A DNA stretch of 64,000 bases from Struthio camelus (lineage: Eukaryota; Chordata; Aves; Struthioniformes; Struthionidae), in the NCBI RefSeq assembly GCF_040807025.1, contig NC_090968.1, positions 1,240,001 to 1,304,000 on the forward strand, read 5' to 3'. The notes beneath the pieces were generated by a model that saw nothing but the letters and a program-made list of their open reading frames with translations, did not search any database and had not been told where the DNA came from. The translations under genes and the position numbers were made by a program. Shown one piece after another: positions 16,031 through 37,000 of the stretch (position 1 is its first letter; every line of letters begins with the position of its first letter).

Positions 16031-19000
16031 GTGAGGGAGTTCCCCGGGGGGGGAGCCTGGTGCCCACCCACCACCCCGCTGAGACTCTCCCACGCTCGCA
16101 GGGGGTTTCTCCGGCTTCCTGCCCTGCTTCGGACCCAGCTTCCTCCCCATCTACGGCGACCTCGCCGCCCGGCCGGACCCCGCCGAGAGAGCCGGCGGCT
16201 CCAGCGTGAGTGTGGCCGGTGGTCGGGGCGGGTGGGTGCCGTCGGAGGGGTCGGTCCAGCCGCTCTGTGCCTTGCAGGGGGACCACAGCGTGATGTATCG
16301 CGGCCGGGTGCTGCTGGAGCTCAGCACCAGCATGGAGAGCCCGGCCGAGCGGGAGAAGGACACCGTCACCGCCGAGGACATCACCAGGGCGGAGGTAGCG
16401 GGGGCGCCCGCGTGGGACGGGGGAGCCGGAAGGACCGGGCTGCGGGGAGCCGCCTCGGCAGGGCTCGTCCCTGCGGCACCCTCAGCCGGAGCCGGCTCTT
16501 CCCTCGGGCAGCGCTACCTGTCGCGCCGCAAGTACGGGCTGTGCGCCGTGTTTTACTCGGCCACCATGCTGCCGGCCACCTCGGAGCTCGTGCAGTTCGA
16601 GGTGAGCATCGGCAACTACGGGAACACGGCCGACACCAGCTGCAAGCCGGCCGCCTCCACCACCCAGCACAGCCGGGCCGTCTATGATGGTAGGGGGGCG
16701 GGAGGAGGGTCGGGGAGCGGGGCGGGAGGAGGGTCGGGGAGCGGGGGGCGGGAGGAGGGTCGGGGAGCGGGGCGGGAGGAGGGATGGGGAGCGGGGCGGG
16801 AGGAGGGATGGGGAGCGGGGCGGGAGGAGGGATGGGGAGCGGGGCGGGAGGAGGGTCGGGGAGCGGGGCGGGAGGAGGGATGGGGAGCGGGGCGGGAGGA
16901 GGGATGGGGAGCGGGGCGGGAGGAGGGTCGGGGAGCGGGGCGGGAGGAGGGTCGGGGAGCGGGGGGCGGGAGGAGGGTCGGGGAGCGGGGCGGGAGGAGG
17001 GATGGGGAGCGGGGCGGGAGGAGGGATGGGGAGCGGGGCGGGAGGAGGGATGGGGAGCGGGGCGGGAGGAGGGTCGGGGAGCGGGGCGGGAGGAGGGATG
17101 GGGAGCGGGGCGGGAGGAGGGATGGGGAGCGGGGCGGGAGGAGGGTCGGGGAGCGGGGCGGGAGGAGGGTCGGGGAGCGGGGCGGGAGGAGGGTCGGGGA
17201 GCGGGGCGGGAGGAGGGATGGGGAGCGGGGCGGGAGGAGGGATGGGGAGCGGGGCGGGAGGAGGGTCGGGGAGCGGGGCGGGAGGAGGGTCGGGGAGCGG
17301 GGCGGGAGGAGGGATGGGGAGCGGGGGCGGGAGGAGGGTCGGGGAGCGGGGGGCGGGAGGAGGGATGGGGAGCGGGGCGGGAGGAGGGTCGGGGAGCGGG
17401 GCGGGAGGAGGGATGGGGAGCGGGGCGGGAGGAGGGATGGGGAGCGGGGCGGGAGGAGGGATGGGGAGCGGGGCGGGAGGAGGGTCGGGGAGCGGGGCGG
17501 GAGGAGGGTCGGGGAGCGGGGCGGGAGGAGGGATGGGGAGCGGGGGGCGGGAGGAGGGTCGGGGAGCGGGGGGCGGGAGGAGGGTCGGGGAGCGGGGGGC
17601 GGGAGGAGGGTCGGGGAGCGGGGCGGGAGGAGGGATGCTGAGCGGGGCGGGAGGAGGGTCGGGGAGCGGGCCGGGAGGAGGGTCGGGGAGCGGGGCGGGA
17701 GGAGGGATGCTGAGCGGGGCGGGAGGAGGGTCGGGGAGCGGGGCGGGAGGAGGGTCGCTGGCCGCGGTGCTGGCTCAGCCCCCTCCGCTTTCCTCCCCTC
17801 TCCCGGCCAGGCAACCGCTACTACTACCTGCCCTGGTACGACGCCAAGCCCGTGGTGGCCTTCACCTCTTTTTGGGAGGACGTGAGCCACCGCTGGGACT
17901 CGCTGAACGCGCTGCAGGCCGCGCACGATCGGCTGGTGAGCGGCGGGGGCCGGGGCCGTCGGCGGGGGCCCCCGGGCGTCCCCGGCGGGCAGCGGGCATG
18001 GCTCGCTCTGCTGCGCAGGAGCGCAACCTGGCCGCGCTGCGCGGCCTCCGGCAAGCCGACGATGCCGCCTGGGACGACGCCAGGAGGAAGCTGCTCCGCG
18101 AGCTGGTCAAGGATTGCAAGTAAGGGAGGGGGGGAAAAAAAAAAAAAACCCCGCACGCGCCTGCTGGGTGGGTTTTTTTTCTTCCCCCCCCCCCCTCCGG
18201 GAAAGCTGGAAAAACGCCCGTCCCTCCCGGGACTGCCCGCGGCCTCTCTTTCTCGCAGGAAGGCGCTGCCGGGGCTGGAGGCGCAGGCCACGGCCACGGC
18301 GCTGGACGGGCACCTGCGCGCCGCGCGGCTCCAGCTGCTGCGCCAAATCGCCGCGGCCGCCGCCGGCGCCGGGGCCGAGCGCGCCGCGCTGCTGCTGGCG
18401 GCCGACGGCTGGCTGCGGAGGATCGCCGCCGCCGTGCCGGAGGTGCGGCCTGGGGGACGCGGGGCGGCGGCGGGCGGCGGCGGCGGCGGGCGAGGCGGCC
18501 GACGAGCTGTGCGCCCGGCAGCCGCAGGCCAGCGTGCCCGACGTGGTGCTGCGGCTGCTGCGCAAGGAGCGGCGCGTGGCCTGCGCCCGCGTGAAGGCTT
18601 CCGCCGTCATGTTCTCCACCAGCGGCGCCTGCGGCGGGCTCTGCGGCAAGACGCAGACCCTCTTCCTGACGGTAGGAGACGCCGCCGGGGCGGGGGGGGG
18701 TCCGCGCCCCCTCCCCGGGCTGCGCTCCGGCTCATCCGGCTGCGGCGCAGGCTGCGCGGAGCGAAGGGGCGGCCGGCGCCGTCTGCGCCCAGCTCCGCGT
18801 CCGCCTCTGGCTGGGGCTGGTGGCCGACAGCCGGGAGCTGCCGCGGCACCTCGAGGGCACCCTGCGGGTCTACGCCGAGACGGTGAGCGGGCGGCGGGGG
18901 GCGCGGCGCGGCCGCCTGGCGGGCGACACGAGCGGGGCCGGGCTCGGCCCCCGGGGTGGGCGACACGAGTGTAGCAGGGCTCAGCTGCCAGTGGGCGACA

Positions 19001-37000: not shown

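Follow-up and report, generated by a model that had tools for sequence, protein, structure and literature searches.

An exact 9,669-base repeat around a 200-N gap in an ostrich ferlin gene most probably reflects an unmerged contig overlap

False duplications that arise where contigs meet have been described in several settings. The available text of the BiSCoT paper describes how a scaffolder, when two contigs overlap at their ends, writes the overlapping sequence twice, before and after an N gap, an event that can involve several kb and can affect genes (PMC7649008). The locus described here resembles those cases in that a region common to two contig ends is present both before and after an N gap; there, however, the gap is one of 13 N derived from Bionano maps, and overlaps of that kind are described as usually allelic, whereas here the gap is 200 N and the copies have 0 differences. 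The homotype false duplications described by Ko et al. (2022) likewise have an assembly gap between the copies and lack heterozygous differences, but in the part of that account available they come with sequencing errors and a depth below the haploid level, whereas our locus presents a clean, exact end overlap (PMC9516828). HMM-Flagger has similarly flagged as a false duplication two contig ends lying in a repeat array, although the ends in the case that the accessible text describes measure 1.5 Mb and lie in a human satellite array, as opposed to 9.7 kb within a gene (PMC12991106). With regard to the gap itself, all 54 gaps of a skink assembly made with hifiasm and YaHS are reported, in the section available, to measure 200 N, so a fixed gap of this size has a precedent; the size is common to both assemblies, although the organism is another one and the tools behind the ostrich assembly may differ (PMC12134992). 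According to the available text of the VGP phase I paper, the dot chromosomes of birds are subject to HiFi dropout; the exact phrase for false duplication was not found in that text.

The stretch of DNA that we analysed (the window) comprises 64 kb of the ostrich assembly. Its sole run of N is flanked by two copies of one block (Table 1), which are equal at 9,669 of 9,669 bases, with 0 mismatches, at an offset of 9,869; the match at this offset cannot be extended past either edge, even by a single base. The arrangement is an exact dovetail, the final 9,669 bases 5' of the N run being the initial 9,669 bases 3' of it. Among exact same-strand repeats of the window, the next in length measures 315 bp and lies within a 33-bp array. 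The block has a GC content of 74.6%, and tandem arrays occupy 55% of it (5,327 of 9,669 bases, in 10 non-overlapping intervals that we chose from the tandem-array listing and then summed). The initial annotation had described the two intervals as matching at a constant offset of 9,869, through at least eight tandem arrays, with the copy boundaries exactly at the gap; it anticipated close to 100% identity upon alignment and regarded fixed differences between the copies as evidence against its reading. Its coordinates and offset proved exact, alignment of the two intervals gave 0 differences in 9,669 bases, all of the arrays are identical (10 intervals counted in the block), the dovetail bears out the position of the boundaries, and there was no fixed difference between the copies in the 9,669 positions compared.

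Table 1. Features of the ferlin locus, in positions of the 64-kb window. Residue numbers are those of the solved sequences myoferlin 9h6x_D and dysferlin 9qls_A.
Feature	Positions	Strand	Remarks
Left flank, FerI region	14475..15113	+	myoferlin 343-381, 459-481; whole query E 1.5e-4, weak; stretches 13.6 and 3.6 bits
Intron holding the left edge (block starts at 16078)	16031..16101	+	71 bp, phase 1, GT..AG
Copy 1	16078..25746	.	end of left contig; begins 24 bases 5' of the exon at 16102, stops within the 33-bp array
Block, first ferlin exons	16107..16601	+	dysferlin 558-585, 595-631, 631-661; whole query E 1.1e-6; repeated at +9,869
Block, FerA/FerB exons	17807..18683	+	myoferlin 676-743, 754-813, 816-874; E 5.7e-13 and 3.1e-9; repeated at +9,869
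Block, last ferlin exons	24408..24848	+	dysferlin 1384-1434 (E 2.3e-7), 1438-1491 (E 8.8e-10); repeated at +9,869
33-bp array, copy 1	24854..25746	.	27 units, 893 bp, cut by the gap
Gap	25747..25946	.	200 N
Copy 2	25947..35615	.	first 9,669 bases 3' of the gap, same as copy 1
33-bp array, right contig	34723..39056	.	~131 units, right flank present
Post-array ferlin exons	39446..40037	+	myoferlin 1488-1517 (weak, E 0.1), 1530-1572 and 1572-1629 (E 3.4e-28)
dsrm_Ferlin domain exon	41652..41798	+	Pfam E 3.4e-8, above cut-off
Last C2 and C-terminal ferlin exons	43353..43757	+	myoferlin 1916-1951, 1951-2014; E 2e-21

The degree of identity bears directly on whether the copies could be the two haplotypes of a single region placed in tandem, the left contig representing one parental chromosome and the right contig the other. 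Such heterotype false duplications predominate in two out of three older assemblies tabulated in the accessible part of Ko et al. (PMC9516828), and an allele-specific contig end would likewise stop at a gap. However, heterozygous differences number 0 in 9,669 bases, every array included. With diversities of 0.001 and 0.0005 per site, which are assumed values, the probability of finding no difference would be ~6e-5 and ~0.008, respectively, with changes in array length left uncounted, and a homozygous run would be required. We consequently judge allelic copies to be very unlikely.

In order to determine the copy number of the block and its flanks, we searched the window's own assembly (1,451,902,618 bases, ~1.45 Gb, in 262 contigs) with probes from the window, which itself corresponds to positions 1240001-1304000 of a scaffold of 7,997,582 bases (C27). 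A 636-bp probe chosen outside the arrays of the block had 2 matches assembly-wide (2 of 2 candidates scored), and these are the two known copies. A longer block probe of 1,001 bp gave at least 92 matches (40 of 124 candidates scored); among the matches listed, it was recovered at full length and 100% identity at the two known places only, the remainder falling in its array part save for one on another contig (C4). This last match, to the exon part (probe bases 416-604, window positions 16493-16681), has 74% identity and probably marks another, paralogous ferlin gene. Both flanks occur once in the assembly. The probe joining the left flank to the block start had 2 matches (2 of 2 scored), one at full length and one comprising bases 163-315 alone, at the start of copy 2, while the probe joining the array end to the right flank (38700-39400) had at least 147 (40 of 155 candidates scored) and was found at full length once, with matches outside the 33-bp array reaching at most 77% identity among those listed. 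The matches scored included neither a third copy of the block nor a sequence elsewhere that would continue the left contig. Twenty 10-kb stretches of the same scaffold, covering 100 kb on either side of the window, held no other 200-N run for comparison; the sides of one shorter N run in these stretches, which may not be a gap, have no overlap.

The point at which the left contig ends could be placed by means of the 33-bp array. The array of the left contig corresponds to the first 27 of the ~131 units in the right contig, with the unit variants in the same order. When the 893-bp left array was slid along 25947-39100, a single position gave 0 mismatches and the next best gave 14; this single perfect register argues that the left contig ends partway through the same array. 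The end within this array to which the initial annotation pointed accounts for where the left contig stops but not for the start of the right contig, which begins 24 bases 5' of an exon, outside any array. The array itself comprises 11 full-length unit variants, and within 34723-39056 there are long internal exact repeats of 315 bp and 278 bp, at offsets of 957 and 1,056 bases, a sign of larger-scale copying inside the array.

To establish how the block relates to the gene in which it lies, we compared plus-strand stretches with solved ferlin sequences and with Pfam. The sequence matches identify this gene as a ferlin, with myoferlin, dysferlin and otoferlin as the only solved relatives matched, and the FerI, FerA, FerB, C2 and C-terminal regions were found in that order. 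Pfam matches to FerI before the block (E 2e-5) and to FerA in the block (E 5.9e-5) fell below the cut-off, as did those to C2 and Ferlin_C near the gene's end, while FerB in the block lay above it (E 1.7e-13). The individual stretches of the first block exons are weak (5.8, 9.7 and 17.7 bits) yet in order, and amongst the FerA/FerB exons the stretch matching myoferlin 754-813 scores just 3.7 bits. Downstream of the array, 39446-39535 corresponds to myoferlin 1488-1517 and 39642-40037 to 1530-1629. As dysferlin residues 631, 1384 and 1438 are equivalent to myoferlin residues 617, 1360 and 1414, respectively, myoferlin 1488 comes after the end of the block. The ferlin exon order is thus doubled in the assembly as written: judged by these matches, a ferlin is colinear with one block, and two blocks would repeat up to ~900 residues.

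Part of the protein had no counterpart in this exon map. Residues ~875-1359 had no match among the stretches searched, and no Pfam match to the DysF domain was obtained in the ORFs scanned, which included 10 ORFs at 19.3-24.6 kb (9 of these 10 were without any family, and the tenth matched keratin weakly, under the cut-off). In the other two Pfam scans 7 of 10 and 7 of 10 proteins were without any family, and phmmer gave no ferlin match for the ORF that covers the exon at 15.95-16.03 kb. Type I ferlins carry a DysF domain, according to the available text of a ferlin review (PMC7140416). Since residues ~875-1359, with the DysF domain, are without located exons, we infer the doubling of that part from its position. 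The initial annotation had assigned the locus to FER1L5; its identity as a ferlin follows from the sequence matches, whereas the name FER1L5, which is probably correct, depends on the neighbouring genes. A legume-like lectin gene, LMAN2L-like, lies at 49029-55707 on the minus strand (with Pfam matches in 3 of 6 ORFs scanned), and a CNNM4-like gene lies at 57233-58834 on the plus strand. The human genome has the same order around FER1L5.

The reading frame did not help to exclude a genuine duplication. We read the codon phase of both edge introns, and the GT..AG borders of the left one, by eye from the sequence; the array-holding intron, with its donor at 24849, is in phase 1, as is the one in which the block starts, so a doubled gene would stay in frame. 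A real and very recent tandem duplication within the ferlin gene, caused by slippage or exchange close to the minisatellite and with a junction concealed by the gap, would have doubled the block's exons to give an in-frame ferlin in which the FerA/FerB and central C2 regions are repeated, with up to ~900 extra residues. The matching phase and the long minisatellite at one edge of the block suit such an event, and so does the geometry, provided that the gap contains the junction; indeed, copy boundaries that coincide with the gap are not diagnostic by themselves, as a true tandem duplication of this kind looks alike. However, the copies have diverged neither in bases nor in array length over 9,669 bases, 55% of which are tandem arrays, and tandem arrays change faster than single bases. 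With a substitution rate of 1.9-2.5e-9 per site and year, the probability of observing no substitution would be 0.09-0.16 for an age of 50,000 years and 0.008-0.025 for one of 100,000 years, with arrays uncounted. Moreover, there is no junction sequence, only 200 N standing between the copies, and no further copy of either flank was found among the assembly matches scored. We regard a true duplication as extremely improbable.

Instead, we consider that the doubled 9,669 bases most likely represent one genomic stretch printed twice, a contig overlap left unmerged around the scaffolding gap, and we would put the probability of this reading at about 95%. The identity of the copies, the dovetail, the single-copy flanks and the colinearity of a ferlin with one block all support the cause put forward at the outset, that overlapping contigs were scaffolded end to end without merging, and the sequence contained no evidence against it. 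Contigs built from read-overlap graphs can share exact ends of about a read length (~10 kb). The assembler would have ended the left contig within an intron of the ferlin gene, inside the 33-bp minisatellite, which is rich in GC, and begun the next contig ~9.7 kb upstream of that end point, with the consequence that the two contigs would share an exact end overlap, presumably a read-graph overlap remaining at the contig ends. A scaffolder, perhaps of the Hi-C type, would then have set the contigs side by side with a gap of nominal size, 200 N, and left the overlap unmerged. The default gap size of YaHS is 200 N. This default is not stated in the available text of the YaHS paper. With regard to class, the locus is almost certainly a homotype false duplication, a known kind of artefact, and hence an ordinary assembly error with no real feature behind it.

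An error of this kind is mainly of concern to users of this assembly. As in-frame doubling may lead gene callers to accept the doubled model, a gene caller run on the assembly as written may give a ferlin in which up to ~900 residues are doubled, and with no obvious warning; alternatively, it may split the ferlin gene in two. Surveys of exon duplication or copy number would score a false gain. More generally, a duplication next to an N gap of fixed length should be accepted only after the sequences flanking that gap have been compared for a dovetail.

The tandem arrays of this region have features of their own. An open frame of 2,002 codons (34274-40282, plus strand) crosses the entire 33-bp array, because each 33-bp unit amounts to a whole number of codons and none contains a stop in this frame; the exon map places the array in an intron, and the frame could mislead gene prediction. 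Further dense tandem arrays lie near ferlin exons outside the block, at 9488-13188, 15312-15915 and 40425-42613, and sequence of this type is where contigs would tend to break. Finally, relatives of the 33-bp array (34723-39056) and of a 24-bp array within the block (16695-17757) are present on many other scaffolds, at ~66-77% identity.
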